A DNA stretch of 64,000 nt from Epilithonimonas arachidiradicis (GTDB taxonomy: Bacteria; Bacteroidota; Bacteroidia; Flavobacteriales; Weeksellaceae), in NCBI RefSeq assembly GCF_003610695.1, contig NZ_RAQH01000007.1:62001-126000 (forward strand), written 5' to 3'. The notes under the pieces were generated by a model. It was not told where the DNA came from. It made no database searches and saw only the letters and a list, made by a program, of their open reading frames with translations. The translations under genes and the position numbers were made by a program. The number at the start of each line of letters is the position of its first letter. Position 1 is the first letter of the stretch. Shown piece by piece: positions 8,977-53,727 of the stretch.

Positions 8977-8988
8977 AATGTATCTATT

Positions 8989-10134: not shown

Positions 10135-10138
10135 TTGA

Positions 10139-36174: not shown

Positions 36175-36442
36175 AATTTTTAATTTCTTATTGCCAAAAT
36201 TAGACAAAAAAAATAATAACAGAGAGACAAATACTAGAAGAATACTGAAATTTTATGTGGCATTTATCACATAATTTCAACATAGTATTTTTACATAATC
36301 ATTAGTATTTTTAATGTTATAGAATAGACAGAAATCGATAAAAATTTATTACATCACTGCAATAGAGATAATAAATAGTAATAATAATTGAAATATGTAA
36401 ATATAATTAGTAAGTATAACTAAAAAAATAAATCGTTACTAC

Positions 36443-37329: not shown

Positions 37330-40300
37330 ATGAAAAATTCCTATTACAATATAGGAGGTATTTTCTTTGGCCTTATATTGACCGCTGTCACCACTCATTC
37401 AAAAGCCCAAACTCGCAACATTTCCGGTACCGTCACCTCATCTAATAAACCGCTTTCGGGAGTCATTATCTCCCAAGAAGGCAGTGATCAGGTAACCATG
37501 ACCGCTAATAACGGAACCTACACCATACAGGTTTCAGCAGAAAATCCCATCCTATTGTTCAGACACCCTGATTATGCAGAAGAAAAAATCACACTCACTA
37601 ATCAGACGGTCGTTAATATCAGCTTAGAACAAAAAGTAAAGGGAATCGAAGAAGTTATTCTCAACGCAGGCTACTACAAGGTTAAAGACAGAGAGAGAAC
37701 CGGTAGTATCGCCAAAGTTTCAGCAAAAGACATCGAAAACCAGCCTGTCAACAACGTCCTGTCAGCTTTACAGGGCAGAATGACGGGCGTAAGCATTACA
37801 CAAAATTCCGGAGTTGCCGGTGGAGGCTTTGATATAAAGATCCGAGGACGAAACAGCTTACGAGGCTATTCAACGACCGGTTATGACGGCAATAAACCGC
37901 TATACATTGTTGATGGTGTTCCTCTTCCTCTGGTCAATGATTTCAATAGTGGAATGACCGCCAGCATCCTTCCATACAATGAAACGAACCCTTTAAATGC
38001 AATCAATCCCGATGACATTGAATCGCTTGAGGTCCTTAAAGACGCCGATGCTACTGCCATTTATGGAAGCAAGGGGGCCAACGGCGTTATCTTAATCACC
38101 ACAAAGAGGGGCAAGAAAGAAAAAACGGAGGTCAACCTGAGAACAAGTTATGGATTGGGACAGATGACCAACCTGCCAAAAATGATGAACCTGGAAGAAT
38201 ATACTGCAATGCGTAAACTGGCTTTTGCCAATGATGGCGTAGCAGTGCCTTCCAATGCCTACGATATCAATGGGGTCTGGAATCCAAATAAAACAACGGA
38301 TTGGCAGAAATACTTCGTCGGAAATACTTCGTCGGTTTCGGATGTACAGCTCGGTGTATCAGGCGGCAGTGGCAATACACAATTCTCAGTTTCTGGCGGC
38401 CACAATGAGGAAACAACTGTTTTTCCGGGAAGCTACCGCTATAAGAGAAATAACCTGGGAGTCAGTGTCAACCATACCAGTGCCGACCGAAGGTTCCAGA
38501 TCGGTTTTAATGGCACTGCGGCATTGCAGGATAATGTTCTTCCACCGACTGACTTCAATATTGTATATCCGGTCTTAGCACCTAATGCTCCGGATTTGTA
38601 TACTTCCAGCGGAATGATCAACTGGGAGAACAATACATTTAACAATCCTATGGGACCTGCCACGCAGACCTTTTCAGTAAAAACCAAGAGTTTAAATGCG
38701 AATATGACTTCCAGCTACCAATTCGGAAGCGGATTCAGTGCTAATCTGAATAGTGGTTACAGTACTTACAACAGTTATGAGCAGAAGATCTTTCCAAAGA
38801 CCACCTATAATCCGTCCAGCAATATCGGCAGCAGCAGTTCTTCTCTCAGAAAAGCCCAGAAATTGAACGAGAGCTGGATCCTTGAGCCTCAGCTGAACTA
38901 CGAGAAGCGACTGGAGAAACACCAGTTTTCCGCATTGGTCGGGGCGTCATTTCAGGAACAGAAATCCGATAACATCGTTATTCTCGGAAGAAATTTCCCA
39001 TCAGATGACCTGTTGACCAATATGGCAGCCGCAGCTTCCATTACGGTTCCCAGCGCCAGTGAATCCTTGTACCGCTACCAAGCCGTTTATGCCAGACTCA
39101 ATTACGGCTATAACAAAAGGTACTTTTTAAATTTAACAGGTCGACGTGACGGGTCCAGCAGATTCGGTTCGGAAAGAAGGTACGCCAATTTTGGCGCTGT
39201 CGGGGCCGCGTGGTTATTTTCGGAAGAAAAACCATTCAAAGATAGATCCTGGTTAAGTTTCGGAAAACTGAGAACCAGCTATGGTATAGCAGGGAATGAC
39301 CAGATCGGAGACTATCAGTATTACGACACCTATCAGTCCACCGGCGGATCCTATGGTGGGAATTCCGGATTGGTCCCACAACGGCTGTACAACAAAAACT
39401 TCGGATGGGAGCTGACCCGCAAGTTCGAGGCTGCTTTAGAAATGGGGCTATTTAAAGAGCGGCTAAATCTGAACATAGGCTATTACCACAACACCAGCTC
39501 CAACCAGCTTGTCGGTATCCCGATGCCTGCCACAGTAGGATTCAGCAGTATTCAGGCCAATCTGGATGCTACGGTAAGAAACCGTGGTCTGGAAGTGTCT
39601 GTGGAATCGGTTCCTGTTAAAACCAAACACTGGAAATGGACGACCAGTCTCAATTTTACGTTGCCAGAGAACCACCTCATGAAGTTCCCCAATCTTGATA
39701 AGTCGACCTACGCCAGCAGATTTGAAATCGGAAAATCTATTTCCCTGGTAAAATTATATCAATATACGGGCATCGATCCTGTCACCGGTCTATATACCTT
39801 TTATGACACGAATCAGGATGGAAAGATCAATACTGCCGACCGTACCGTCAGCAAAGAGATCAAGGAATACTGGTATGGCGGGCTACAAAACAGTATCCAG
39901 TATAAAAACTGGAGTTTCGATCTGCTGTTGCAGTTTGTAAGCCAGAGCCAGTACAATGTGAAATCGATGTACGGCAATATCGGTAACATGTCCAATATGC
40001 CGGCCATATTCACCGATTACTGGACACCGGGAAATCCTGATGCCGAGTTTCAAAAGCCCAGTGCAGGGTATAACACAGCCGCAGCGACAGCGAGTTCCCT
40101 TTTTCTCCTCAGCGATGCTACCGTTTCTGATTCGTTCACCGTCAGAGTAAAAAATGCAACCTTGAGCTACAGGATACCATCGGACAGCAACGGCAAGCTG
40201 AAAGCCAGGCTTTTTATAAGCGGGCAAAATCTCTTTGTTTTTTCCAGTTATAAAGAAGGAAATCCTGAATTTATGGCGGCAGGCTACACCAGCCCGCTCC

Positions 40301-40335
40301 GAGTAGTCAGCTTTGGTCTTTCATTAACCTATTAA
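37330..40335 (+). CDS. SusC/RagA-type TonB-dependent outer-membrane transporter
   Basis: A 1001-residue protein. The signal peptide ends near SKAQ, then comes a CarboxypepD_reg-like domain (RNISGTVTSSNKPLSGVIIS, about 28-105). The plug has VNNVLSALQGRMTGVSITQNSG and SLEVLKDADATAIYGSKGANGVILITTKRG, the SusC signature, and a 22-strand-type barrel ends in SFGLSLTY. It imports a substrate held by its SusD partner. With an S9 peptidase downstream, peptides are the more likely cargo than glycans. A structured leader precedes it and SusD follows 11 nt later. Confidence 0.93.
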   Translation: MKNSYYNIGGIFFGLILTAVTTHSKAQTRNISGTVTSSNKPLSGVIISQEGSDQVTMTANNGTYTIQVSAENPILLFRHPDYAEEKITLTNQTVVNISLEQKVKGIEEVILNAGYYKVKDRERTGSIAKVSAKDIENQPVNNVLSALQGRMTGVSITQNSGVAGGGFDIKIRGRNSLRGYSTTGYDGNKPLYIVDGVPLPLVNDFNSGMTASILPYNETNPLNAINPDDIESLEVLKDADATAIYGSKGANGVILITTKRGKKEKTEVNLRTSYGLGQMTNLPKMMNLEEYTAMRKLAFANDGVAVPSNAYDINGVWNPNKTTDWQKYFVGNTSSVSDVQLGVSGGSGNTQFSVSGGHNEETTVFPGSYRYKRNNLGVSVNHTSADRRFQIGFNGTAALQDNVLPPTDFNIVYPVLAPNAPDLYTSSGMINWENNTFNNPMGPATQTFSVKTKSLNANMTSSYQFGSGFSANLNSGYSTYNSYEQKIFPKTTYNPSSNIGSSSSSLRKAQKLNESWILEPQLNYEKRLEKHQFSALVGASFQEQKSDNIVILGRNFPSDDLLTNMAAAASITVPSASESLYRYQAVYARLNYGYNKRYFLNLTGRRDGSSRFGSERRYANFGAVGAAWLFSEEKPFKDRSWLSFGKLRTSYGIAGNDQIGDYQYYDTYQSTGGSYGGNSGLVPQRLYNKNFGWELTRKFEAALEMGLFKERLNLNIGYYHNTSSNQLVGIPMPATVGFSSIQANLDATVRNRGLEVSVESVPVKTKHWKWTTSLNFTLPENHLMKFPNLDKSTYASRFEIGKSISLVKLYQYTGIDPVTGLYTFYDTNQDGKINTADRTVSKEIKEYWYGGLQNSIQYKNWSFDLLLQFVSQSQYNVKSMYGNIGNMSNMPAIFTDYWTPGNPDAEFQKPSAGYNTAAATASSLFLLSDATVSDSFTVRVKNATLSYRIPSDSNGKLKARLFISGQNLFVFSSYKEGNPEFMAAGYTSPLRVVSFGLSLTY

Positions 40336-40346
40336 ATTGCATTATT

Positions 40347-41744
40347 ATGAAAAATACAATTTTAAAACATATTATATTACCAACCCTTTTGATTCTGTCC
40401 CTTCTGATCACTAACAGCTGTGACCGCTTTACGGAAGTTGGACTCCCTAAAAATCAAATAACAAGAGAAGTCGTCTTCAAAGATGACCAGCTGGCTAAAT
40501 CTGCCATGGCAGGTGTTTACCGTTCATTAGACGAACAGGGGTTTTTGTCAGGAGCTCCATCAGGGGCTCAGCTCGTGCTGGCAGCCTATGCAGATGAGCT
40601 TCAGGCCTATGGTTTAGCTACAACAGATGCTGCCATCTTTTATAACCTGAGCCATATGGCCACTACCGATAAGATCAAGAATCTGTGGACGATCACCTAC
40701 ACTCAGATCTACAACATCAACGCCGTTATTGAAGGGGTTGAAAATTCGGACAGCCTGAGCTCAGAAGTTAAAAACCGATTAAAAGGGGAAGGCCATTTTC
40801 TCAGGGCTTTGCTGCATCTTTACCTAACCCAGACATTCGGTCCAGTCCCTTACGTCACCTCGACAAATTATCAGGTTAACCAGAGCATCGGTAAGCTAAG
40901 TACCAGTCAGGTTTATGGCCAGTGTAAAACAGATCTCGAAACAGCAGTACCACTCTTACCCGCCACTTTGGCCGCAGGAAACAGGGTATATCCGACAAAG
41001 ATGGCAGCCTATACTGTATTGGCAAGAATGGCCTATTATGAAAAAAACTGGGATTCCGCGCTTCAGTATTGCAACCATGTCATCGCAGATGTCCAATATA
41101 AAATGGAAGCTGACTTAAACAAGGTATTCCTGAAAGACAGCTCAGGAAGTATATGGCATCTGTTACCTTTTGGTGCTACGTACAATGCATATCAGGGGAA
41201 TGTATTTATCCTGAACACAGCCCCGCCGACCAATGTTGCGCTACGACAGGATTTTATAGATGAATTTGAGACTGGCGATCAAAGAAAATCCGCTTGGATA
41301 GGGCAAAAGACCGATGCACAAAATAAAACGTATTATTATCCATATAAATATAAACAGTATTATACCAGCCCGACCTCATTAGAATATTCGGTCATTTTAA
41401 GAGTAGAGGAACTGTATTTAATAAGAGCAGAAGCTTATATTAAAAAACGCCAATATGACTTGGGAATTGCAGATATCAATACGATCAGGAACCGTGCTGG
41501 TTTAGCATCATTAGCCAATACAATTGATCAAAATATCTTGATCAATGCTTTAATTCAGGAAAGGAGGTCAGAATTATTTACTGAGTTCGGACACCGCCTC
41601 TATGACTTAAAGCACTACGACCTTGCAGATGTCATAATGCCTTCAAAGAAAGGGCAGTGGAGACCCTATTTTAAATTACTGCCCCTACCTGCAAGTGAAT
41701 TGCTACTAAATCCTAACTTAAATCCGCAGAATGATGGTTACTAG
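40347..41744 (+). CDS. SusD/RagB-type substrate-binding lipoprotein
   Basis: A 465-residue lipoprotein with lipobox LLITNSC. The SusD-like TPR fold is evident in YRSLDEQGF, IEGVENSDSLSSEVKNRLKGEGHFLRALLHLYLTQTFGPVPYV and the C-terminal LIQERRSELFTEFGHRLYDLKHY. It forms the lid of the neighbouring SusC channel. Its 3' end overlaps the S9 peptidase gene by 14 nt, so the three are translationally coupled. Confidence 0.93.
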   Translation: MKNTILKHIILPTLLILSLLITNSCDRFTEVGLPKNQITREVVFKDDQLAKSAMAGVYRSLDEQGFLSGAPSGAQLVLAAYADELQAYGLATTDAAIFYNLSHMATTDKIKNLWTITYTQIYNINAVIEGVENSDSLSSEVKNRLKGEGHFLRALLHLYLTQTFGPVPYVTSTNYQVNQSIGKLSTSQVYGQCKTDLETAVPLLPATLAAGNRVYPTKMAAYTVLARMAYYEKNWDSALQYCNHVIADVQYKMEADLNKVFLKDSSGSIWHLLPFGATYNAYQGNVFILNTAPPTNVALRQDFIDEFETGDQRKSAWIGQKTDAQNKTYYYPYKYKQYYTSPTSLEYSVILRVEELYLIRAEAYIKKRQYDLGIADINTIRNRAGLASLANTIDQNILINALIQERRSELFTEFGHRLYDLKHYDLADVIMPSKKGQWRPYFKLLPLPASELLLNPNLNPQNDGY

Positions 41745-44235
41745 GTTTTATATTCTGGCATTCCTCTTAATTCAGGGACTTTGCTGGTCTCAGAATATTG
41801 ACAGTTTAAACGCAGTTTACAAGCAATATTATGAAACAGCATTACGGGCGAACAGCCCTAATGGGCGTTACGTTATTCTAAACCACAGCAATACTTATGG
41901 AAAGAATGACTATGAATTGTTGGATGTCAAAATGGATAAAACGACAATGCTGGGTAATTATGATCAATTTCAATTTTTAAATGATGATTTACTGCTGATG
42001 CGCAATAGTAATCATTGTCGATTCACAGATTTAAGAACCGGTCAGTCCACGGAAGTTTCAGGTAACTATATAATCCAACCTACACAAGAATCGGCTCAAG
42101 TGATTCTATTTAATCCAAGTTTAAGAGAACTTCTGTTAGTTTCCATAGAGGGAAAAGTATTGTGGAGAAAACAGGATGTAAGGGTTTATCAACTTGATAC
42201 GACTACCAATAACCTAATCTATACATCAGGAAATGACCTTGTTGTAACGAATCTGACAAGTTATCGCTCTAAGACCTATAAGGTTAATAGTGATATCCAA
42301 TGGATTTCTTCAGTTGATCAGCGAATATATGCCGCCAATGTCCAACCCAAGCAAATTGAACTCTACAGTGTTGACCTTCGATCAGAAAAGTTAACCAAGC
42401 AGCTGGTAGCTGTGCCCGAAGGATTTGAATCAACCACCCGGTTAATTACCTATTTGGAAGTTCGGGAAAATGAACATTTCATATTTCCGTTGTATTTGAA
42501 AAGTAAGCTGGAGCGTTATGAAAATCCCGAATTGAAGATCACCTATTCCAATAGGAACGGCGAGGATAAAATGCTCTATTACCATTTGGGCATTTATAAT
42601 CTTAAAAACGAACAATGGGATTATCTACCTGATGTGAATGATGAAATACCGGTCTATAAATTTTTAAATGACAAAGGAGATTTCATCGTGTATGATTTAG
42701 CGGATGATGTTGTGGAAGAGCAACAAAATAGAATCCTTGATCTAAATCTGTTTTTAAATTATGGTAAAAATTCATATTTATTGCCCCAAAAAAGAATAGA
42801 GGAAGGCAATTATCTTTGGGATCGCGATACAAAACAGTTTGTCTATTTTAATGATACGACTTGGATATCCCATAATATTATTACGGGGAAAGAGGTTGAT
42901 CTTATACCTCCTAATACAAAGGGTTGGACCAGTCTGGAACATAGCGGCTTAGCTAAAGCCCCTGCTACTAATCCTGTTAAAATTAAAGGCAAATGTGCGA
43001 TAATGATTTCCAACCATTTTGATTATTTTGTAATCGACCTGAAAACCATGCAATTAAAAAGAGTCACCATGGGAGAAGTAGCCAAAACGAAATATCAACT
43101 CATGTTGTCAAAAGAGCATTACCCGAAATCATCCTGGAATATAAGAATAGCAGAAATAGATCTATCGAAGGATTTACTATTTAAGACTTTCAATAAGCTG
43201 TCTTATGATTCAAGATTTGCCACCGTTACCGATAAAAACAATAAAACAACATTTTTCCAGCAAGGTCATTACAGGGATATAATACCTTATGATAACGGAT
43301 ATTTTTTAACATCTGGTTTTGCCTTGGAGCCTTTTAAGCTGACAATCCTCGAAAGAGGCAAATATCACACTGTTTATGAGTCTCTAAAAAAAGAAAAGAA
43401 AGGATTCGAAGGAGCTAGGTACGAGATATTTCAATATAAAACCGATTTAGGAACTTCCAACGCAGCACTCTTATTACCTGTCAACTATGATCCCAACAAA
43501 AAATATCCGATGATTGTGAATATTTATGAGGAGCTTTCGCACGATGTGTTATTTTTCTTGCAGCCTTATTTAAATATAATGACCGGATTCAATTATATGC
43601 ATTATCTGATGAATGGCTATATCGTTTTACTTCCGGATCTCCAATACGAAGTAGCAAATGTTAAAAATAGCGTTTTATTGTCTTTGGAAAAAAGCATCGA
43701 TTCAGCCAAATCGCTGGCATCAATCGATGACAAAAATATTGGATTGATAGGACTGTCATACGGGGGATATGAGACAGGTCTTGCACTGACCAATTCGAAG
43801 TACTTTAAGACAGGTGTGGCGGGAGTTATGATTTCTGATTTGGTTTCCCATGCCCTTAGCCAATCTGAATTCATGACTAAGCCGAACTATATGAGGGCTG
43901 AAAATCATCAGATGAGGATGAACAATAGTGTCCTGGATCATTGGAGTCTTTATCTGGAGAACTCGCCTGTTTATCATGTGAAAAATATTGAAGTTCCTGT
44001 ATTGCTTTGGACAGGGTTGAAAGATAAAAACGTATCACCTGCTCAGGCAAGGATGTTCTTTATGGGAATAAAAAGACAGATGAAAAAAGCTGTTTTGCTG
44101 GAATACATCAATGAAACCCATAACGTCTTACAACCTTTCAATCAATTAGATTTTAATATTAAAATCTGGCAATGGTTCGAATATTACCTGAAGAATAAAA
44201 AGCCGGCAGACTGGATTCGCCCACTAACTCAATAA
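41731..44235 (+). CDS. Exported S9-family peptidase (prolyl oligopeptidase type)
   Basis: An 834-residue protein with an N-terminal signal (FYILAFLLIQGLCWSQ). A degenerate propeller precedes a C-terminal alpha/beta-hydrolase domain. The triad is Ser676 in GLSYGGYE, Asp765 in GLKDKNVSP and His797 in NETHNVL. S9 enzymes cut short peptides, often after proline, and are screened from large proteins by the propeller. Coupled to SusC/SusD, it probably trims a peptide in the periplasm or at the surface. A terminator follows. Confidence 0.88.
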   Translation: MMVTRFYILAFLLIQGLCWSQNIDSLNAVYKQYYETALRANSPNGRYVILNHSNTYGKNDYELLDVKMDKTTMLGNYDQFQFLNDDLLLMRNSNHCRFTDLRTGQSTEVSGNYIIQPTQESAQVILFNPSLRELLLVSIEGKVLWRKQDVRVYQLDTTTNNLIYTSGNDLVVTNLTSYRSKTYKVNSDIQWISSVDQRIYAANVQPKQIELYSVDLRSEKLTKQLVAVPEGFESTTRLITYLEVRENEHFIFPLYLKSKLERYENPELKITYSNRNGEDKMLYYHLGIYNLKNEQWDYLPDVNDEIPVYKFLNDKGDFIVYDLADDVVEEQQNRILDLNLFLNYGKNSYLLPQKRIEEGNYLWDRDTKQFVYFNDTTWISHNIITGKEVDLIPPNTKGWTSLEHSGLAKAPATNPVKIKGKCAIMISNHFDYFVIDLKTMQLKRVTMGEVAKTKYQLMLSKEHYPKSSWNIRIAEIDLSKDLLFKTFNKLSYDSRFATVTDKNNKTTFFQQGHYRDIIPYDNGYFLTSGFALEPFKLTILERGKYHTVYESLKKEKKGFEGARYEIFQYKTDLGTSNAALLLPVNYDPNKKYPMIVNIYEELSHDVLFFLQPYLNIMTGFNYMHYLMNGYIVLLPDLQYEVANVKNSVLLSLEKSIDSAKSLASIDDKNIGLIGLSYGGYETGLALTNSKYFKTGVAGVMISDLVSHALSQSEFMTKPNYMRAENHQMRMNNSVLDHWSLYLENSPVYHVKNIEVPVLLWTGLKDKNVSPAQARMFFMGIKRQMKKAVLLEYINETHNVLQPFNQLDFNIKIWQWFEYYLKNKKPADWIRPLTQ

Positions 44236-44236
44236 A

Positions 44237-44256
44237 AAACTCCCGAAAGGGAGTTT
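44237..44256. terminator. Terminator between the S9 gene and a DUF6520-like gene
   Basis: Stem AAACTCCC/GGGAGTTT with loop GAAA, flanked by an A-run; bidirectional between convergent genes. Confidence 0.8.
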
Positions 44257-44257
44257 C

Positions 44258-44536
44258 TTAGTCTAGCCTATATAATTCAACGTTAGCCGTCTCCGGATGA
44301 TCAATTTCAGGGCCATCAGTCCCAAAAACCTGCTGTCCGTTTGGTAAACCATTAACAGTACAAATGGTCCCATCTGTTCCACACATGACGCTTCGATCCC
44401 ATTGATTGGTTGAGTGATTAAAAATATAGCCTTGTCTAACAGCTGCATTTTCCATGTTACTTCTTGCAGTTTTTGTAATGGCAACAGCTCCGATTCCTAA
44501 TAAAATGGGGACTGTAAATAATATATAATTTTTCAT
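44258..44536 (-). CDS. DUF6520-like small exported protein, paralog A
   Basis: A 92-residue product. The reading frame extends to TTG 44545, but ATG 44536 aligns with the paralog start and is chosen. The N-terminal hydrophobic signal is YILFTVPILLGIGAVAI. The mature part has RQGYIFNHSTNQWDRS, two cysteines six residues apart (MCGTDGTICTVNG), and NGLPNGQQVFGTDGPEIDHPETANVELY, nearly identical to paralog B. It is exported, and a disulfide is likely. The family is widespread in Bacteroidetes without known function. It is convergent with the SusCD/S9 operon. Confidence 0.8.
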   Translation of the reverse strand: MKNYILFTVPILLGIGAVAITKTARSNMENAAVRQGYIFNHSTNQWDRSVMCGTDGTICTVNGLPNGQQVFGTDGPEIDHPETANVELYRLD

Positions 44537-44632
44537 TTTGGTCAATTTAATGTTGTATTATAATTAGTCAAAAGATTTTATAAAAAGTTTTTCTGCTGAT
44601 AGCAGTAATTTTTAACTCAAACCATTAAAATA

Positions 44633-44650
44633 AGCTCCCTTTCGGGAGCT
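44633..44650 (-). terminator. Terminator of DUF6520-like paralog B
   Basis: Stem AGCTCCC/GGGAGCT with a four-base loop 5 nt after the stop. The minus-strand sequence continues TTATTTTAA, a weak T-run. Confidence 0.65.
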
Positions 44651-44654
44651 ATTT

Positions 44655-44936
44655 TTAGTTGATTTTGTATAATTCGACATTAGCCGTTTCCGGGTGATCA
44701 ACGTCAGGCCCAGTCGTTCCAAATACCTGCTGTCCTGATGGCAGACCATTAACTGTGCAAATAGGATCAACCTCTTCTTTACACATGATGCTTCTGTCCC
44801 ATTGATTGGTTACATTGTTAAAAATATAGCCCTGTCTAACTGCTAAATGTTCCTTGCTACTTTTTTCTTTTTGAGTAGCGAATGCAGTTCCTGTTCCTAT
44901 CAGAATTAGAACTGCGGGTAAAATGAAATTTTTCAT
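44655..44936 (-). CDS. DUF6520-like small exported protein, paralog B
   Basis: A 93-residue protein with signal FILPAVLILIGTGTAFA and a mature part RQGYIFNNVTNQWDRS. Cysteines lie eight residues apart (MCKEEVDPICTVNG), followed by the shared tail NGLPSGQQVFGTTGPDVDHPETANVELYKI. It resembles paralog A over its full length, so they arose by tandem duplication. Both have their own terminator hairpin. Candidates for its role are a secreted peptide precursor or a small surface protein processed by the S9 enzyme. This is inference from proximity only. Confidence 0.82.
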   Translation of the reverse strand: MKNFILPAVLILIGTGTAFATQKEKSSKEHLAVRQGYIFNNVTNQWDRSIMCKEEVDPICTVNGLPSGQQVFGTTGPDVDHPETANVELYKIN

Positions 44937-45012
44937 TGTAATAAAATTTGATGTTATGCCTACTCTAAATCAACAGGTTTTCGGCAATCCCTGTTCTGTC
45001 GGCCAACAGATA

Positions 45013-46455
45013 TTATTTAAATGTATATCTTGAAATTTTGTTACCAGACAGTACATAGAAATAATGTTTTGTGCATAATATTCCTCTGATTTTATCTTTA
45101 TCATGATTCCTGATATAAAAGCTGTAGAGATATTGTTTCGTTTGATTATTATAGACATCAATGATAAAATTATTTCTGTATACTTCAGGGGATTCGTCTC
45201 TGCCCCTTATATTTGATACATTATAAAACTTATTATCATATAAAGTTTGCGCCTTGTTGATGACACTTGGAGATCGCAATAACTTTTGTTGTCCGTTTTT
45301 AAGTGTTTTGGTTTCAATTGCGATATGGGACAGGGAATCAATCGTTCTGTTTCTTTGAATATTATGGAAATTAAAATCCGCTGTTATCATCTCGTTGAGA
45401 TAAAAATGAGTGTAAATAATTTTTTTGTTGTGATGGTCTATAGCCATATCGCCGTCTGTGTCAAAAACGCCGTCTGTCTTTTTCTGTAATACATCCGGAA
45501 AGATTTGATATTCCTTTTTTGCAGTATTTAAAATGCCCAGTTCACTTTCTTTTGTTTTAACAAGCATTGTTTTAAATACATATTTTTGTGGTTCAATCAT
45601 ATAGAACCGCGAAAAATAAAGTCGGTTAATACCTGTCTCGCAGGCCATTAAAGTTGGGAACTTTCCTTCAAAAATTACCGGCACCTTTCCATCAGATACG
45701 CTGAAATAAGGGTATAAGACATTAATTGTAACACTGACAAAATCATACTTATAGTTATCTAGTCTGATCGTGTCCAGTTTAATAGAATTGTAATCAGGTG
45801 TTATGGTTGAAAGAAGCAATGGTGTTTTACGGTTTGCTAAAAATAGAGAATCACCATAACTACCTGCAAAATAATAGTTGTTCATAGGAAACTTCAATAT
45901 TTGACATTCCATTGTTAATGGTTCAATCACATTCCTTTTAAAAGACCCTTGGGGCTCATCAACACTTATATCAAATACAAGCACTACAGACAATAATGGC
46001 AGGATTGTAGACAAAGCAAGCCGACTCATTAACTTTATCCTGTTTGTAAAGCCATTAAAGATAATTGCCACGATCAATAAGAGAACACAACATACATTAA
46101 ACATTAGGTGTTGATTCCAATCCATTTTCTCAAGTATACCTCCGCAGGAGCAGGGAATAGAAGCACTGTAATTTAATATAAGATAGATGTACACCGTAAA
46201 AGCGGACATGATACCAAGAGCTGCATAAAGCCCTGTTATGCGAAATTTTCGGATGACTAAAAGATAGACAATTACCAGTTCAACAATAATAACGAGCAAT
46301 GAAACGATGCCTGAATAGGCTCCAAGCATCGGTGACTGCGCTAACTGTACATGGAAATTCTCAAAGTCCAACAGTTTACTCACACTCGCATAAATAAACA
46401 GCAGGATAAAAAAATAGGAAACACCTTTGACAAAAATCGTCTTAAAAGATTTCAT
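45013..46455 (-). CDS. MauE/DoxX-type membrane protein with extra-cytoplasmic sensor-like domain
   Basis: A 480-residue protein. The first 170 residues hold four or five membrane helices of the MauE/DoxX kind and a conserved PCSCGG (Cys102, Cys104), typical of redox-associated membrane proteins that move electrons to periplasmic dithiols. Residues about 175-480 form a large beta-rich domain (repeats such as YFAGSYGDSLFLANR, GDMAIDHHNKKIIYTHF), likely a propeller. A role in oxidising or reducing the cysteines of the neighbouring small proteins is attractive but inferred. Confidence 0.75.
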   Translation of the reverse strand: MKSFKTIFVKGVSYFFILLFIYASVSKLLDFENFHVQLAQSPMLGAYSGIVSLLVIIVELVIVYLLVIRKFRITGLYAALGIMSAFTVYIYLILNYSASIPCSCGGILEKMDWNQHLMFNVCCVLLLIVAIIFNGFTNRIKLMSRLALSTILPLLSVVLVFDISVDEPQGSFKRNVIEPLTMECQILKFPMNNYYFAGSYGDSLFLANRKTPLLLSTITPDYNSIKLDTIRLDNYKYDFVSVTINVLYPYFSVSDGKVPVIFEGKFPTLMACETGINRLYFSRFYMIEPQKYVFKTMLVKTKESELGILNTAKKEYQIFPDVLQKKTDGVFDTDGDMAIDHHNKKIIYTHFYLNEMITADFNFHNIQRNRTIDSLSHIAIETKTLKNGQQKLLRSPSVINKAQTLYDNKFYNVSNIRGRDESPEVYRNNFIIDVYNNQTKQYLYSFYIRNHDKDKIRGILCTKHYFYVLSGNKISRYTFK

Positions 46456-46474
46456 GGCTTTCTTTTTAATATGT

Positions 46475-46642
46475 TTAACAGACCTGAATCAATCTCCATT
46501 TGATCTTCATTCCGCAGTAGTCAGGCATCAGTTCACCTTTAAATAATGTTACAGTTGTTCTGAAATTCCCCATACTTTCCCAGATGCCGCTTTCCGGACA
46601 TGGTAAGCCTGTGGCAGCTGATATGGAGGTATGAGGAATCAT
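46475..46642 (-). CDS. Small cysteine-containing protein, 55 residues
   Basis: From ATG 46642 the product begins MIPHTSISAATGLPCPESGIWES and ends LMPDYCGMKIKWRLIQVC. The pattern CPxSGIW ... KGxxMPDYC ... KW is ordered and not random, so I take it as a real gene. It has no obvious signal peptide of its own. It lies 19 nt upstream of the MauE-like gene and 16 nt downstream of a small lipoprotein, on the same strand. Probably part of the same transcript; function unknown. Confidence 0.65.
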   Translation of the reverse strand: MIPHTSISAATGLPCPESGIWESMGNFRTTVTLFKGELMPDYCGMKIKWRLIQVC

Positions 46643-46658
46643 AGGTCATAGAATTGAT

Positions 46659-46877
46659 TTAGTTATCTGGTTTAATCCTCCAGTTATCACCGTCTCTTAC
46701 CGGCGGATCGGGATCTACAATCCCCTCAGATGATTTGGCAGAATCTTTTCTCATCACCTGTTTTTTTTGGATATCATCTGACTCATTAAGATCCAAGATT
46801 TCTAGATCTCGGTTCGAACAGTTTTGTAAACTAAATGCAGCTATCGCTATACTAAAAATTGGGATAAACTTTTTCAT
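46659..46877 (-). CDS. Small lipoprotein, 72 residues
   Basis: The open frame extends further upstream, but ATG 46877 gives a clear signal, MKKFIPIFSIAIAAFSLQNC, with the lipobox Cys at residue 20. The mature 52 residues are charged (NRDLEILDLNESDDIQKK) and end VDPDPPVRDGDNWRIKPDN. No family recognised. It is the first gene of the minus-strand small-protein/MauE block, divergent from the TPR-AraC regulator. Confidence 0.65.
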   Translation of the reverse strand: MKKFIPIFSIAIAAFSLQNCSNRDLEILDLNESDDIQKKQVMRKDSAKSSEGIVDPDPPVRDGDNWRIKPDN

Positions 46878-47157
46878 TGTAATTGGATTTGATTTGGTTA
46901 TCCCGACGTCGGATTGAATTAGAATTCTGAAGCCAAAGTTAGAAGGCTGCAATGCACAAAAAAACTGTCCTGTGGGGCAATTTTAGAATTGAGACGTCTC
47001 TATTTTAAAATCGTACCATCACGAAAAAGCCCTTAAAGGCGTAGTTATCGATGGCACCAACATATTAATGTATCGAATGGTCCTCATTGGCTGCCAAAGG
47101 CATTATTTAAGATCAAAATCCGTATTTTTGAGATGGTGAGGTTCTAATAATCAGTAT

Positions 47158-48861
47158 ATGAAAAAGTTAAACTACTTTCTCGTCCTGCTTTCTGCATTTT
47201 CACAGTTACTATCAGCACAGCAAAAAATAGAAAGTACTTTCAGGGAGATCAGAGGTCATTATGAAAAAATGACCATTGACGACATCACTGCGATGCCTAA
47301 TGTTAAGTTGTATATAGAAAAAGCCAAAGCCGAACATAATATTCCCAAATTGCTTCAGGGCTACAGAGACGGAAGACAATTCGATCTGAAAAACAAAATA
47401 AAATATGCTGACAGTGCTCTAATGCTCAGCTTAAAACATGGAACAAAAGATGACATCAGCAAAGATTTTCTGAGCAAAGGAATCATATACTATTTCTACC
47501 ATAAAAAATATAAACAGGCCCTAAATCAGTATTTGAAAGCTTATGAGTACTCTAAAGGCTCGAAAGATGAATACCATAAGTATAAGGTTATTTATCACCT
47601 GGGAATTGTGAAAGAGCATCTCGGTTATTATGACGAGGCGCTGGAGCATTTTGAGGATTGTGCTGCATTTTACAGCTCTCAAGATTATCAAAAGCTTCAC
47701 GAAAACCTCCAGTTTAACTACAAAAAAGCATATTTCAATTCACTGCATCAATTGACAGTGATCAACAGGTATTTAAAAAACTTCTCTAAAAGTGACAGTC
47801 TCAGTCTATTAGGATATCGACTAACAAAAAATAATCCTGATTTTATACTGGAAAACAGCTATTTTTTAAAATGTATTGGAATTTGTGAATTTCTAAAAAA
47901 AGACTACACCTCGGCAAAAGCTGACCTTGAGACCGCTTTACCAAACATTATCAGGAGAAATGATTTTGCATGGGCATCTGTAATTTATTATTACTTAGCA
48001 AAAATCGCTGAATTTGAAAATAATGAAAATAAAGCCATAGCTTATTACAGTGAAGTTGATTCTATTTTTCAAAGAGAAGACTTTATTCTCCCTGAGGTCT
48101 TCAAAAGTTATAATTACCTGATTGATTATTATCAAGGAAAGAATCTAAGTAAGGAGCTATATTATACCAAACAGCTTCTTGAAGCTGACAGTTTAATGAC
48201 AAAAGATTATCCTTATCTGTCCGCAAAACTACATAAGGATTATGATCGTAAGTCCCTGATTGAGCAAAGAGACGATATAGAGAAGGCGAGTCTGCGAAAG
48301 ATCAGATTAGCACAGGTATTAATACTTTCAGGAACGCTTGTCCTATCATTTTTCGTGATCCGGTATGTGAAAGACCGAAAAATAAAAAAGCAGTACGATT
48401 TGCTTCAAAAAAGAATGGCAGAGGGTACTTATGAAAAAAGAGATATTGTTACAGAAGAACCAGAAGATTATGCAATCAGAAAAACTTTCCTTAGCCCGGA
48501 AGTGACTGTTGAAATAAAGCAAAAACTTGAAAAATTTGAACGGGAGTTGCAATTTACGAAGAAAGGTATTACTCAGAACAGCATAGCCGGTAAGCTCAAT
48601 ACCAATGCTCATTATTTGTCGGTGTACATCAATGAAAATAAAGGCATGAACTTTACAAAATATATTGCTCAACTCCGAATACAATACATTACCCATCTCC
48701 TGAATACCAACAATAAATATCTTCACTACACCGTAGAAGCTTTGGCTGAAGAGTGCGGAATAGCAGCACGTCAGAATTTTTCAAAACTGTTCTTCGAAAT
48801 TAACGGTATACGACCTACGGATTATATCAAAAAGAGAAAACAGGAATTAGGAATTAAGTGA
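47158..48861 (+). CDS. Membrane-bound TPR/AraC-type regulator
   Basis: A 567-residue protein with a signal peptide (FLVLLSAFSQLLSAQQ). TPR-like helices follow from about 40 to 370 (KQALNQYLKAYEYSKGSK, GYYDEALEHFEDC), then one membrane helix (LAQVLILSGTLVLSFFVIRYV, about 385-405) and a cytoplasmic AraC domain with its HTH pair (IAGKLNTNAHYLSVYINENKG and VEALAEECGIAARQNFSKLFFE). Such proteins sense from the periplasm and regulate from the membrane. Divergent from the small-protein/MauE block, it is the likely regulator of this locus. Confidence 0.85.
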   Translation: MKKLNYFLVLLSAFSQLLSAQQKIESTFREIRGHYEKMTIDDITAMPNVKLYIEKAKAEHNIPKLLQGYRDGRQFDLKNKIKYADSALMLSLKHGTKDDISKDFLSKGIIYYFYHKKYKQALNQYLKAYEYSKGSKDEYHKYKVIYHLGIVKEHLGYYDEALEHFEDCAAFYSSQDYQKLHENLQFNYKKAYFNSLHQLTVINRYLKNFSKSDSLSLLGYRLTKNNPDFILENSYFLKCIGICEFLKKDYTSAKADLETALPNIIRRNDFAWASVIYYYLAKIAEFENNENKAIAYYSEVDSIFQREDFILPEVFKSYNYLIDYYQGKNLSKELYYTKQLLEADSLMTKDYPYLSAKLHKDYDRKSLIEQRDDIEKASLRKIRLAQVLILSGTLVLSFFVIRYVKDRKIKKQYDLLQKRMAEGTYEKRDIVTEEPEDYAIRKTFLSPEVTVEIKQKLEKFERELQFTKKGITQNSIAGKLNTNAHYLSVYINENKGMNFTKYIAQLRIQYITHLLNTNNKYLHYTVEALAEECGIAARQNFSKLFFEINGIRPTDYIKKRKQELGIK

Positions 48862-48907: not shown

Positions 48908-49750
48908 ATGGTAACAAAAACTATTTTTAGAAAAATTGCAAAGCTGCATGAAGAACTGGAGCTTAAAATCAATGAAGCTTATGATGAAGACAACATGCTC
49001 AAGGTTGCAGAAAAATCTTTACTGTTAATCGATGATTCTATCAGAAAATTGAAGTCTTTTGTCTCTGCTCATCATTTTGAGAATAAAGGCGAAGAAATTC
49101 ATTTCTTCAAAAAGCTGAAACCAAAATTCATTTCGAAGTTTATTTACTATTCAACAGTTTTAGATTTAGAATCCCACAAGCCCAATGCCGGAAAGAACGC
49201 ACTGAAGGAATACTATGAGGCAGAACAGGAAAAGCTTAAGAATTTTTATAAGGAACAATCTGATTTTTACAGTTATTACAGAAGGGAAGCCACGTACCTG
49301 GATCATAAAATATTTGTCCGGAATTCCTACGATCTTAAAATGAAACTCTCATTAGGCTTTTACAATTTCGACACAAGCTTCACTACCTCTCATGATCAGC
49401 TGATCGCAAAATTTATGGCGAATGAAAAGATTGACTACTACTTAAAAAAACAAATTGATAGTTTATCAGAAAATAATGAAAATCAAAATTCATCCAGACT
49501 GGTCTGGTCCGCGTCGAAGGTTGGACTTATCGAATTGGTATATGCCCTGTATCATATGCGCTGCTTCAACGGTGGTAATGTGGAACTCAGTGAAGTCATT
49601 CGATTTGTGGAAAAATCACTCGGCACAGACCTTGGAAATTTTCACAAGACCATCTTTGAAATCCGAAACCGTAAGCAGGGACCGACCAAGTTTTTGAACA
49701 TAGTCAGCGATAATCTTGCCCAGCATTTTCAACAAACAGAAGGGGAGTGA
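48908..49750 (+). CDS. rteC: RteC-family regulator of element excision
   Basis: A 280-residue protein. The C-terminal half matches RteC (SRLVWSASKVGLIELVYALYHMRCFNGG, DLGNFHKTIFEIRNRKQGPTKFL). The N-terminal half is helical and charged. In CTnDOT, RteC binds upstream of the excision operon and activates excision. The usual RteA/RteB two-component partners are not in the window. It lies 47 nt after the TPR-AraC gene and is convergent with mobC across a perfect hairpin. Confidence 0.88.
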   Translation: MVTKTIFRKIAKLHEELELKINEAYDEDNMLKVAEKSLLLIDDSIRKLKSFVSAHHFENKGEEIHFFKKLKPKFISKFIYYSTVLDLESHKPNAGKNALKEYYEAEQEKLKNFYKEQSDFYSYYRREATYLDHKIFVRNSYDLKMKLSLGFYNFDTSFTTSHDQLIAKFMANEKIDYYLKKQIDSLSENNENQNSSRLVWSASKVGLIELVYALYHMRCFNGGNVELSEVIRFVEKSLGTDLGNFHKTIFEIRNRKQGPTKFLNIVSDNLAQHFQQTEGE

Positions 49751-49757
49751 AATGCGT

Positions 49758-49797
49758 TGTATAAACCATAAACTCAATAACGTTTATGGTTTATACA
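49758..49797. terminator. Perfect 16-bp hairpin between rteC and mobC
   Basis: TGTATAAACCATAAAC (49758-49773), loop of eight, GTTTATGGTTTATACA (49782-49797). The mobC stop codon lies inside the second arm. No long T-run; probably a bidirectional stop. Confidence 0.7.
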
Positions 49798-51794
49798 TCT
49801 TTATTGATGAGGTGTTGCAAATCGGGATCCTTAGAAATCCTTTCCATCTCATGTGTAATGATTTTTAAAATTTCAGATTTTATACTTTTATAATTTTTTT
49901 CTATTTCATCCCGCATACAATCGTTGCCCTCCTCATCAGCAAAAGAACGAATTTCCGGTATCTTTTGGTAGTGCTTTTCCTCTGCTGCAAGTTTTGCAGC
50001 ATCAACGACAATCTCAGAATGAAAAATCTTCTGTTCTATTCTTTCATCAAAATTATCAGAAACAGCGCCTACAAAAAATCCCTGTGTTAAAGTGGATATC
50101 TTGGAAGCAGGAATTAAACTGTCCAATTGTGTGGAGATGGATGTCGAAGTATCGTTTCTGTTAATTGATATACTCTGTCTTTTCTGTAACACTTTGCCAA
50201 ACCTATCAGATAAAGCCTTCGCCGTTTCACCGACTACTTGTCCACTGAAAATATTTCCGACTGTATTTTGGATGACCTTACTTTCTTTATCACCATAATC
50301 TCTGGTAAGCTGGGAAAAATCCTGAAATCCCAGGCAAACAGATACTTTGTTGCTTCTTGCGGTGGCAATCAGATTATCAAGACCTCTAAAATAAATAGTA
50401 GGCAGCTCATCAATAATGATTGAGCTTTTCAGCTGGCCTTTTTTATTGATCAGTTTTACAATCCTCGAATTGTAAAGCCCCAGCGCCGCAGAATAGATAT
50501 TCTGTCGGTCAGGATTATTACCAACACATAAAATTTTTGGTTCTTTAGGATTATTAATGTCCAAGGAAAAATCATCTCCCGTCATTACCCAGTACAGTTG
50601 GGGTGAAATCATTCTTGATAAAGGGATTTTCGCTGATGCGATCTGACCTTGCAACTGATCCTGCGCACCGCCCTGCCAGGCATCCATAAAAGGGGAGAGG
50701 TAGTTTTCCAATTCAGAATAAGAGGTAAGAATGGTAAAAACATCTTCGTATTTCTTATTCAGCAGTTCAATAGCGTGTGGAAAAGTACAATACTTGCCAT
50801 TATCATAGATTTTCAAAAACCAGATAATAGCCGCTAACAAAATGATAGGCGATTCCACAAAAAAGTCTCCTTGTTTCTGTATCCAGCTTCTATTCAAATT
50901 CAGCATAATGGTATAAGCCGCTTCATAGGCATCCGAAATATCGGTCATAAAATCAGGATTTAGGGGATTGCATCGGTGGCTTTTTCTGGGGTTGTCAAAA
51001 TTGATAATATAAAACTTAGGCTTTATGGTATAAGCATTGGAATGATTTAAAAGGTGATTATAAGCGATTGTTGAAAGGTCATCAAATTTAAAATCATAGA
51101 TATACATTGAAAATCCCTTTTCGATATGCTGCCTGATGTAATTATTGACTACAGCATAAGATTTTCCGGAGCCCGGTGTTCCTAAAACAATGGTCGCACG
51201 AAAAGGGTTAACGACGTTGATCCATCCGTGATGCCAGTTCCCTTGATAATAGAATTTTGTAGGAAGGTTGACAGAATATTCATTATGGAGTAGTTTTGTC
51301 TCTTGCTGGAAGCTTTCATTTTCACTGTTGAAGACATCATTCATCAAATTGTTTTTCAATATGCGGCTCATCCAGACTCCAGCCTGCATTAACAAAACAT
51401 ACCCCAGTCCAGTCGAAAAAAAATACAGATATGCTGCAAGATGAATATCAACTTTCAGCAACCAATCGTTCAGGAAAAACAGTAGGAACCCCGTTACAAG
51501 TGTAAGGTTGATTTTATTCCAGGTTATCTTTTCATTTTTTACGCCCTTTGTTCCAAGACAGCTCAGGCCTAATAGTACGACTGCAAAAATTTTAGTATAG
51601 AAAGGATTAGAGAATAAAGCAGCTGTCCGATTAAAATTATGCAGTATCTTTGTGGCGATGTCTATTGTCCATTGACGTTCATCAAAAAATCCATAGCAGA
51701 ACCAGTAAAGGTGCATCATTACAATGATAATGCTCACTGCCCTCATAAATGCCATAATTTTGGCCAATCCCCTCAAGTCGTCTTCTCCCTGCAT
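49791..51794 (-). CDS. mobC: Type IV coupling protein (VirD4/TraG-like)
   Basis: A 667-residue ATPase. N-terminal membrane helices lie at about 15-35, 65-82, 95-112 and 118-142. The Walker A is GTPGSGKS (residues 205-212) and the Walker B is IIIDELPTIYF. It links the relaxase-DNA complex to the secretion channel at the inner membrane. Bacteroidetes ICEs name it MobC. Here an NTPase gene on the other strand separates it from mobB. Confidence 0.92.
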   Translation of the reverse strand: MQGEDDLRGLAKIMAFMRAVSIIIVMMHLYWFCYGFFDERQWTIDIATKILHNFNRTAALFSNPFYTKIFAVVLLGLSCLGTKGVKNEKITWNKINLTLVTGFLLFFLNDWLLKVDIHLAAYLYFFSTGLGYVLLMQAGVWMSRILKNNLMNDVFNSENESFQQETKLLHNEYSVNLPTKFYYQGNWHHGWINVVNPFRATIVLGTPGSGKSYAVVNNYIRQHIEKGFSMYIYDFKFDDLSTIAYNHLLNHSNAYTIKPKFYIINFDNPRKSHRCNPLNPDFMTDISDAYEAAYTIMLNLNRSWIQKQGDFFVESPIILLAAIIWFLKIYDNGKYCTFPHAIELLNKKYEDVFTILTSYSELENYLSPFMDAWQGGAQDQLQGQIASAKIPLSRMISPQLYWVMTGDDFSLDINNPKEPKILCVGNNPDRQNIYSAALGLYNSRIVKLINKKGQLKSSIIIDELPTIYFRGLDNLIATARSNKVSVCLGFQDFSQLTRDYGDKESKVIQNTVGNIFSGQVVGETAKALSDRFGKVLQKRQSISINRNDTSTSISTQLDSLIPASKISTLTQGFFVGAVSDNFDERIEQKIFHSEIVVDAAKLAAEEKHYQKIPEIRSFADEEGNDCMRDEIEKNYKSIKSEILKIITHEMERISKDPDLQHLINKDV

Positions 51795-51933
51795 TTTCCT
51801 TATAATAAATGTTAAGGCTCGAATTTATTTAGTCAATAGAGACGCAAACTCATTGGGCAACTTTTGTAGCTGTATGGCAATATTAGGCAGTATGCCTCGC
51901 ACATGAATAAAATAATAATTAAATTACTGTAAA

Positions 51934-52467
51934 GTGAAACTCTATATAATCACCGGCGGTCCCGGTGCCGGTAAAACAACTTTAATCAATGCACTTCAGA
52001 AGAAAGGATTTAAAATCGTACCTGAAGAAGCTAGGCGACTCATTAAGGAACAAATACTTATCGATGGCAATGGATTACCTTGGAAGAACAAGGCACTCTA
52101 TGCCCAGCTGATGGCCGAAGCTTCTATACAAAGCTATTGGAACGTTATCAACGAGTCTTCAGAAAACACCATTTTTTTCGACAGAGCATTACCCGATACA
52201 ATCTGCTATATGAAAATGGAAAAGCTGCCAGTCTCTAAAGACATTACACAGTTGACAGAAACCATTGTATATAACAAAAAAGTATTTATACTTCCGCCTT
52301 GGAAGGAAATCTATATAACCGATGCGGAAGGCAAACAAAACTGGGAAGAAGCCGTCGAAACCTATGAACAAATGAGGATGACTTATACGAAATTTGGGTA
52401 TGAACTTGTTGTTGTTCCAAAAGATACTGTTGAAAAACGCTGCCAGTTCATATTAGACTTGATTTAG
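51934..52467 (+). CDS. AAA_28-like NTPase, cargo between mobC and mobB
   Basis: A 177-residue single-domain NTPase with Walker A GGPGAGKTT (residues 8-16) and the kinase-like motifs FFDRALPDT and PPWKEIY. Members of this ATP-binding family are of uncertain role, with links to nucleotide kinases. A GTG start at 51934 is used because no in-frame ATG precedes the Walker strand. It is transcribed against mobB and mobC, and its stop abuts that of mobB. Confidence 0.78.
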   Translation: MKLYIITGGPGAGKTTLINALQKKGFKIVPEEARRLIKEQILIDGNGLPWKNKALYAQLMAEASIQSYWNVINESSENTIFFDRALPDTICYMKMEKLPVSKDITQLTETIVYNKKVFILPPWKEIYITDAEGKQNWEEAVETYEQMRMTYTKFGYELVVVPKDTVEKRCQFILDLI

Positions 52468-53727
52468 TTATCTCCTTTTTCTTATTTTTCTTTTCTTCAT
52501 TCTGTTGGCAAACTCAATTTCTTCATGATCATTTTCATCACTTAAAGTCGGAAGAATTCCACCAAAGGATTCGAAAAAAGAATCTCTGCTACTTTCAACT
52601 GCAGTGAAAAGATGATGACTGTTTTGAGTAGGTCTTAGATGAAGAGTATGTTGATCTTTCATTTCCTCATCTGTCTTCTTGCTTGGATTATTCCATTTAT
52701 CATTAAAAACATTCGCTGAACATTCTTTTCCCAAACGTGATCCATTCCAGACCGTTTTTGACTGTTGATCAATAAAAATCATTCCGTAAATTCTTTCCTG
52801 AGCATTTTTACGAATCACCGTATCAATTCCTTCTTTTTGCAATTTTTTAATAAATGATTTTTCATTGTTTGAAGATTGTAATGACAAAATGATTTTCTCT
52901 TGTAGCTTCTCTTTCGTACGAAGATTTTTCATTTTTGCCTTATTAGATTCAAAGTGCTTTTCCAAAGAACCAAGACCAGCCTTTTTTCCAAACAGCGATG
53001 CTTTAAAAGGCTTTCCAATCTTTTTACCCTTCCTGTCTGTTGGAAAGTACAGTAAACCTTTTTGCAAGTGACCTTGCAGTTCTCCTTCCACTTTTTCCGC
53101 AGTAATATTATAAAGAGAGAGTAGAGCATTGTACTCACCCAGGGACTGAAATTGATATTGAGAACTGATATGTCTTACCACTGAGGCAATCTGACTTTTT
53201 ATATCGCCTCTCTTATAATCGACCGCTTTAAAAATCGGGCTGTTCAACTTATTTTCTTTTTCCAGTGCTGAAATCAATCCGAATTGCTTTTCCAGTTCCC
53301 GACATATTTTCATCGAACGCACTTTTTCGAATTTGTCGGATATCTTCTTACCTTCTTCATCGACGCATACAGAGACAATATGAATGTGACTTCTGTCTAT
53401 ATCCGTATGTTTAAATACAACAAACGGCTGTTCACCATAGCCCATTTCCTGCATGTATTGCTGAGCCATTTGTCTGTATTTCCCATCAGAAACATTGTCT
53501 TCAGGATCTGGATTTAAAGAAATATGCAGGGTATGTTTTTCTGTATTTCGATTAGCTGACAAATAAGGTTCAAATGATTTCGCCAGCTGACTAGCAGTGT
53601 AGCTTCCATCTGCTGTTTCAATCATTTTGTTAGTCAGCAGAATTTCTCCTTTCTCCTTTTCTATTTTAAGATTATTGTAGGACAAAGTACCGAACAAATT
53701 ACTGCTTCTTCCGATTTTAGCAACCAT
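52468..53727 (-). CDS. mobB: MobA/VirD2-type relaxase
   Basis: A 419-residue relaxase. HUH motif: His107 in FKHTDIDRSHIHIVS plus His114 and His116 hold the metal. The nucleophile is probably Tyr17 in GTLSYNNLK. The rest is a basic, helical C-terminus ending MKKRKIRKRR. It nicks oriT and leads the strand into the recipient. It lies 7 nt from mobA; together they form the relaxosome. In Bacteroidetes ICE naming this is MobB. Confidence 0.92.
   Translation of the reverse strand: MVAKIGRSSNLFGTLSYNNLKIEKEKGEILLTNKMIETADGSYTASQLAKSFEPYLSANRNTEKHTLHISLNPDPEDNVSDGKYRQMAQQYMQEMGYGEQPFVVFKHTDIDRSHIHIVSVCVDEEGKKISDKFEKVRSMKICRELEKQFGLISALEKENKLNSPIFKAVDYKRGDIKSQIASVVRHISSQYQFQSLGEYNALLSLYNITAEKVEGELQGHLQKGLLYFPTDRKGKKIGKPFKASLFGKKAGLGSLEKHFESNKAKMKNLRTKEKLQEKIILSLQSSNNEKSFIKKLQKEGIDTVIRKNAQERIYGMIFIDQQSKTVWNGSRLGKECSANVFNDKWNNPSKKTDEEMKDQHTLHLRPTQNSHHLFTAVESSRDSFFESFGGILPTLSDENDHEEIEFANRMKKRKIRKRR

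Follow-up and report, generated by a model that had tools for sequence, protein, structure and literature searches.

The 64,000-nt window analyzed here (the whole stretch of Epilithonimonas arachidiradicis DNA; host genome, 3.65 Mb) contains, inside a conjugative element, a cassette of five kinds of genes: the importer genes susC and susD, an S9-family peptidase gene, two genes of the small-protein family DUF6520, and a mauE gene extended by a predicted beta-propeller. A structured RNA lies between mauE and DUF6520. The parts of the cassette are the following.

37330–38109 (+): N-terminal part of SusC (signal peptide, CarboxypepD_reg and plug; residues 1–260), the conserved left end of the exchangeable block
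38110–40335 (+): SusC beta-barrel (residues 261–1001), specificity block
40347–41744 (+): SusD/RagB surface lipoprotein with lipobox TNSC, specificity block
41731–44235 (+): exported S9-family serine peptidase with the triad S676/D765/H797, specificity block
44258–44536 (−): DUF6520 paralog B, ATG start at 44536, two Cys, without the RNA element in front
44633–44650 (.): bidirectional terminator-like hairpin between the two DUF6520 genes
44655–44936 (−): DUF6520 paralog A, a Sec leader and a secreted core with Cys C2 and C3
44957–44994 (−): structured RNA, probably of the Rfam RF02914 (DUF805b) type, with a P1 hairpin and a covarying pseudoknot, 20 nt before the start codon of DUF6520-A
45013–46455 (−): MauE-propeller fusion, a five-helix membrane domain with PCSCGG at residues 101–106 and a predicted periplasmic beta-propeller at about 180–480 (the latter in the specificity block)

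All the genes named in an initial annotation of this DNA were found in place. SusC matched TIGR04056 (658 bits; 37330–40335), the S9 product matched PF00326/Peptidase_S9 (81 bits), and MauE matched PF07291 at 99.1 bits, above the 27-bit threshold. DUF6520 (PF20130) was matched by copy A at 36.6 bits; copy B, at 21.2 bits, falls below the Pfam cut-off of 25.4 but is a clear paralog. The two copies had been described as near-identical, which proved too strong: they share 64% identity, the mature part (75%) being better conserved than the leader (46%). The membrane protein does carry the reported CSCGG motif, but MauE makes up only its first third, the rest being the predicted propeller. The structured RNA at 44957–44994 had been overlooked.

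Could the association of these genes be accidental? Full-length relatives of the MauE fusion were collected from 200 genomes of the same family and from named genomes across the phylum (558 confirmed relatives, 80 kept), and 120 distinct loci remained after identical MauE copies were dropped. The five-gene core (SusC, SusD, S9, DUF6520 and MauE) was complete in 105 of them, and many of the 15 incomplete loci were cut by the ends of the contig or of the fetched region. The layout was also kept, with SusC-SusD-S9 running in one direction and DUF6520-MauE convergent with it in the opposite direction, in hosts as varied as Chryseobacterium, Epilithonimonas, Kaistella, Myroides, Flavobacterium, Pedobacter, Sphingobacterium, Chitinophaga, Gelidibacter and Draconibacterium. 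The five-gene association is not chance; the initial annotation had offered a lack of recurrent linkage as grounds for abandoning its view, and the linkage is phylum-wide. When genomes were drawn evenly over the phylum, the profile matched 26 of 297 at E values up to 1e-30, mostly with the full fusion; the system is thus widespread, though patchy. A single cell can hold several cassettes, as one genome (G157) has two with equal scores at distant sites (G157:C1:259932, also locus L069, and G157:C1:2996335) and another (G121) has seven MauE matches. In distant relatives (L351 and L354–L358), SusC-SusD faces a small exported Cys peptide and a MauE protein that has no propeller or a separate one, and thioredoxin/redoxin-like proteins stand in place of S9, in one case together with a subtilase. 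Common to all these loci are an exported Cys peptide, MauE and SusCD, together with an enzyme that acts on peptides or disulfides.

Furthermore, we observed that the parts of the cassette vary together. Among 48 loci on integrative and conjugative elements (ICEs), the distances between DUF6520 peptide cores followed those between SusC, SusD, S9 and MauE proteins (rho 0.62–0.69; 0.64 for SusC), whereas those of the neighboring AraC-type regulator, RteC and a 55-aa protein did not (rho −0.00 to 0.06; 0.03 for AraC). Linkage alone predicts the reverse, since the AraC gene starts about 2.2 kb from the peptide gene and the SusC barrel lies 4.3–6.8 kb away. Because pairs in such distance and identity comparisons are not independent, changes were also counted on trees (FastTree), with the peptides grouped at 60% core identity into 10 classes of more than one member. 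The classes required 9 changes, the minimum, on the trees of the SusC barrel, SusD, S9 and the MauE propeller, compared with 12 on that of the MauE membrane domain, 13 on that of the SusC N-terminus, 15 each on those of AraC and RteC, and about 22.5 with shuffled labels.

Similarly, when the ICE backbones were alike (AraC at least 60% identical) and the peptides different, identities fell to 0.48 for the SusC barrel, 0.41 for SusD, 0.16 for the S9 propeller, 0.23 for the peptide core and 0.32 for the MauE propeller, next to 0.49, 0.43, 0.17, 0.26 and 0.35, respectively, in unrelated loci; the SusC N-terminus stayed at 0.75 (baseline 0.62). When the backbones differed and the peptide class was the same, the five values were 0.81, 0.75, 0.59, 0.82 and 0.63. 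The breaks are visible in the DNA itself. Between loci L072 and L090, 92% identity extends from the ICE side across AraC and the 55-aa gene and over the first 125 codons of mauE, past which homology is lost or patchy until the first ~300 susC codons; the window compared with L115, and L065 compared with L090, break in the same way. In the reverse case, the window and L064 share 87% nucleotide identity over SusC-SusD-S9 and 84% over the DUF6520 core on differing backbones (AraC, 39%). These sequence comparisons indicate that the peptide core, the MauE propeller, S9, SusD and the SusC barrel have been exchanged together on similar ICE backbones, and the exchanged block is bounded by the conserved SusC N-terminus and the MauE membrane domain. 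Mutual recognition best accounts for such joint variation between constant membrane and plug domains: the propeller and the peptidase would handle the peptide and SusCD would recognize it.

An alignment of 120 DUF6520 sequences shows a conserved leader (MKKFILPAxVILxGTGAAFAT) and a core that varies except at its Cys residues: mean column entropy is 1.65 bits in the first 24 columns versus 2.64 bits in the remaining columns without Cys. Two of the four Cys, C2 and C3, are present in 120/120 sequences, and C1 and C4 in 111; the nine sequences without C1 are the same nine without C4 and form one clade, which includes the window. This joint loss fits two nested disulfides, C1-C4 and C2-C3, of which the window would keep only C2-C3. 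All the genes are under purifying selection (dN/dS < 0.5), and DUF6520, judged by its leader, probably encodes a Sec-exported peptide. The NVEALA family (PF14055) was considered as a relative and dropped after two weak matches in 148 genomes. An open-access search, in which absence is not proof, found no literature on DUF6520 or NVEALA.

The AlphaFold2 (AF2) model of the MauE fusion (mean confidence, pLDDT, 86.5) has five membrane helices followed by about 25 strands, and Foldseek matched it to beta-propellers, the best being the Bacteroides DUF4221 structure 3s9j. No PDB relatives were found by sequence, and the propeller is visible by fold only. If the protein keeps its positively charged N-terminus in the cytoplasm, it would expose both the PCSCGG loop and the propeller to the periplasm. 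Both Cys of the CxC motif are invariant (120/120 loci), as is the S9 triad (S676, D765 and H797) in all 112 relatives aligning there. A role in the maturation of methylamine dehydrogenase finds no counterpart in the locus, as no mau dehydrogenase genes occur among annotated or conserved neighbors. Membership of the S9 protein in the lasso isopeptidase family AtxE2 (NF033523) was rejected, at 64.4 bits against a cut-off of 400. Among solved structures, the best match of the window SusC is a SusC homolog without further specification; RagA, a peptide importer, comes second, so that the "peptide-type" label once given to this SusCD pair is not established. Of the marks of a polysaccharide utilization locus, the SusC/SusD pair is present, and linked glycan-active enzymes were not recognized among the locus genes and conserved neighbors. 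The open-access literature search returned no description of a MauE-SusC/SusD linkage, an absence that is not proof.

The RNA recurs as a 35–40-nt motif between mauE and DUF6520 in 121 loci. Its score against Rfam DUF805b (RF02914) is 34.9 bits in the window, just under the gathering score of 35.6, and 37–48 bits (up to 47.7) in several relatives. In the pseudoknot, 141 of 144 cells are paired, compared with a mean of 122.6 (standard deviation 2.0) in shuffled alignments, and 0 of 5000 shuffles reach this value, a test from which the relatedness of the sequences was not removed. In many loci (L072–L117), the RNA overlaps the last mauE codons, and its reading frame there differs between loci (C-termini ...GEAENL or ...GSRKP), so that conservation applies to the RNA and not to the end of the protein. 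Across the family as a whole, DUF805b RNA occurs in up to 21 copies per genome, 19–30 nt before a start codon, and this fixed distance suggests a translational role. About 20–23 of 39 sampled downstream genes encode bacteriocin-like peptides with double-glycine leaders; the RNA (L221–L290) also precedes genes for tail-collar-like proteins, DUF805-like membrane proteins and lipoproteins. The RNA described here is probably of the same type and sits inside an operon, between mauE and DUF6520; we found no source linking DUF805b RNA with DUF6520.

On its right side, the cassette adjoins the control and transfer genes of the element.

46475–46642 (−): 55-aa protein (CPxSGxW...MPxYxG), ICE regulatory module
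46659–46877 (−): 72-aa lipoprotein ending in DPDPPVRDGDNWR, ICE regulatory module
47158–48861 (+): regulator with a signal peptide, predicted periplasmic tetratricopeptide repeats (TPR), a transmembrane helix and a cytoplasmic AraC-type helix-turn-helix (HTH), ICE regulatory module
48908–49750 (+): RteC (conjugative transposon regulator family), 46 bp after the AraC-TPR gene
49791–53727 (−): ICE transfer genes, a VirD4/TraG-type coupling protein (49791–51794) and a MobA/VirD2-type relaxase (52468–53727)

The stretch lies inside a CTnDOT-like conjugative element, with TopB at 23.2–25.3 kb, RteC at 48.9 kb, and the coupling protein, relaxase, ParA, TraG, TraI-like and TraJ genes at 49.8–63.5 kb; RteC, relaxase, coupling protein and TraG/TraJ with TopB nearby are the genes by which the CTnDOT type is recognized. 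One or more conjugation genes were found within ~10 kb of MauE in at least 78 of 119 loci, and one other than RteC in 37, compared with 0 of 20 control windows of 20 kb from the same genomes. The ICE location proposed in the initial annotation is borne out by these counts. Plasmid or phage carriage was considered without a match, and no known defense system was hit in PADLOC. That annotation had treated everything from SusC to the regulator as one cargo block; this stands for SusCD, S9, DUF6520 and MauE, and the 55-aa protein, lipoprotein and regulator follow the ICE backbone. AraC-TPR, RteC, the 55-aa protein and the lipoprotein are a control module of the ICE, which may only switch the cassette along with the element. 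The regulator had also been taken for the peptide's own sensor, a candidate that we rejected because it does not covary with the peptide core (AraC rho 0.03; 15 tree changes versus a minimum of 9) and follows RteC and the backbone instead.

Several loci without AraC/RteC have the cassette directly at the end of a tra operon (TraG to TraQ). Where the AraC-TPR/RteC module is missing, extracytoplasmic function (ECF) sigma and FecR genes often lie just upstream of SusC, and one SusC from such a locus has a weak STN signaling domain; many of these loci have a short AraC regulator upstream of MauE. Several sigma/FecR-type loci (L162, L178, L189 and L154) adjoin very large RHS-repeat/SpvB-like genes. 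The 55-aa protein is found in most AraC-RteC loci, directly before mauE and without a signal peptide, and had no family match in Pfam, NCBIfam, PADLOC or PHROG. The small lipoprotein, whose gene lies upstream of that for the 55-aa protein in some 30 AraC-RteC loci, has a variable middle and the constant end DPPV(K/R)DG(Q/D)xW. The available part of a report on Riemerella ICEs (PMC6491836) lists a putative TonB receptor and RteC and does not describe the cassette. Elsewhere in the window, a fused HSDR_N and N6 methyltransferase gene of the type I restriction-modification type (33682–36207) directly precedes the cassette, and the consecutive DNA polymerase III alpha-like, Y-family polymerase-like and LexA-like HTH genes at 5908–10972 look, by eye, like an SOS mutagenesis cassette.

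What might such a cassette do? The best explanation, to which we give about an even chance, is an exchangeable cassette for peptide specificity that resides mainly on conjugative elements of Bacteroidota and most likely serves for self-recognition or signaling between carriers. DUF6520 would be the precursor of a small secreted peptide, its translation set by the RNA element and its passage to the periplasm directed by the Sec leader. There, to go by the families involved, the MauE CxC membrane domain would form the disulfides while the propeller holds the peptide. The mature peptide would then leave the cell and be captured by a cognate SusD/SusC pair for TonB-driven import, after which the periplasmic S9 peptidase would cleave it. 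That peptide core, propeller, peptidase and SusCD barrel are mutually matched and swapped together, as in the agr specificity region, is shown by the sequence comparisons. The output is the least certain step: it may run through SusC, FecR and sigma in some elements and through the generic AraC-TPR-RteC module here, and peptide self-recognition or signaling between carriers as its purpose shares that uncertainty. The initial annotation had proposed that a peptide is made, oxidized, trimmed and re-imported. This logic fits the invariant MauE CxC and S9 triad, the exported Cys-core peptide and the five-part co-exchange, and also the replacement of S9 by thioredoxin-like proteins in distant relatives; the peptide may well be secreted and re-imported, and the cassette may have a part in communication or competition.

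Several observations weigh against this proposal. The genes encode no route for export across the outer membrane, and the regulator does not go with the peptide class. In partial correlations, the most direct tie of the peptide is with MauE (0.30) and not with SusC (−0.07). The co-loss of C1 and C4 is perhaps a single event, as it is confined to one clade, and the AF2 model of DUF6520 is moderate (pLDDT 77) and has no fold match. Since 41 of 119 loci have no conjugation gene in view, the function is not purely one of the ICE, and some cassette copies may be chromosomal.

The variable Cys core behind a conserved leader, the linked variation of the product and its handling proteins, the carriage on mobile elements and the RNA family common to double-glycine-leader bacteriocin-like genes would all suit antagonism of the bacteriocin type. 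DUF6520 would then be a disulfide-stabilized antibacterial peptide, the cognate SusCD and S9 would protect the producer by uptake and destruction, and the block would diversify like a toxin-immunity pair. An importer, however, is an unusual immunity device, neither a dedicated exporter nor a recognizable immunity protein is present, and the DUF6520 peptide had no PADLOC or phage-family match; we consider this explanation unlikely. Similarly improbable, in our estimate, is nutrient uptake, in which SusCD and S9 would import and cut environmental peptides or proteins with DUF6520 and MauE as accessories (a secreted capture factor or peptidophore, or a periplasmic redox chaperone for the importer). 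SusCD with a peptidase is indeed a standard nutrient layout, ECF sigma/FecR genes accompany some relatives as they do many uptake loci, and the thioredoxin-like proteins in place of S9 would fit as well. On the other hand, joint exchange of a small secreted peptide, a membrane redox propeller and the importer in one block is not what nutrient uptake would lead one to expect, ICE carriage does not favor it, and neither glycan enzymes nor inner-membrane transporters were recognized among the conserved neighbors.

The exchange in a block might also be driven from outside, if phages or bacteriocins using SusC/SusD as a receptor selected for swaps of the locus and the neighboring genes hitchhiked. 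Surface proteins of the SusC type are plausible targets for phages. However, the peptide, S9 (propeller identity, 16%) and the periplasmic MauE propeller vary as much or more, and the edges of the block, the SusC N-terminus and the MauE membrane domain, stay conserved, a pattern that hitchhiking does not predict. We consider this cause very improbable.

In its working, the peptide-specificity cassette resembles staphylococcal agr, where AgrB-AgrD-AgrC combine a peptide precursor, a processing membrane protein and a receptor in a variable block with conserved ends. Here too, precursor, processing protein and receptor change as a single block between conserved ends, a likeness of working and not of membership: the cassette has no AgrB, AgrD or histidine kinase (Pfam and NCBIfam scans found no AgrB protease or AgrC kinase families), its peptide would carry a disulfide instead of the agr thiolactone, and it uses an outer-membrane TonB importer with a periplasmic peptidase. 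In the Gram-positive pheromone systems (pCF10 cCF10/iCF10 and ICEBs1 PhrI-RapI), an exported peptide undergoes proteolysis and re-import and is read by a TPR regulator near the control genes of a mobile element. The small exported peptide and the TPR-bearing regulator beside element control genes have counterparts here, as would the proteolysis and the re-import, but SusCD replaces Opp, the TPR is predicted to be periplasmic and the regulator does not vary with the peptide. A TPR regulator specific for its linked peptide, as in RRNPP/Rap-Phr systems, was not found (rho 0.03; 15 changes versus a minimum of 9). Lasso isopeptidase loci (AtxE2, NF033523) likewise place an S9 enzyme, thought to act on an imported peptide, beside a TonB receptor, and AtxE2 is among the PDB matches of the window S9; here, however, no lasso precursor, macrocyclase or leader peptidase was recognized. 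Porphyromonas gingivalis RagAB shares the SusC/SusD pair, with RagA as the second-best solved match, but has no known link to a peptide precursor, MauE or an exchangeable block. The parts of the cassette are known families, and the joint system with its agr-like block exchange appears to be undescribed.

Exchangeable peptide-receptor blocks underlie quorum sensing and bacteriocin specificity in Gram-positive bacteria, and to our knowledge no such system with outer-membrane peptide import has been described for Bacteroidota. Tentatively, and with less than even confidence, we suggest that the cassette represents a new class of peptide pheromone or kin-recognition system in Gram-negative bacteria. 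The MauE-propeller fusion would be a dedicated oxidase that matures a disulfide micropeptide, and the cognate SusCD importer, which depends on TonB, would read this peptide together with the peptidase. Block exchange on conjugative elements would diversify the system, which would serve self/non-self recognition of element carriers. The block structure predicts that cognate peptide-importer pairs interact and non-cognate pairs do not. If true, this would give a function to DUF6520, the MauE-propeller fusion and part of the SusCD repertoire, would suggest a regulatory role for the orphan RNA DUF805b, and would provide a peptide handle on how elements with cargo such as resistance genes are transferred.

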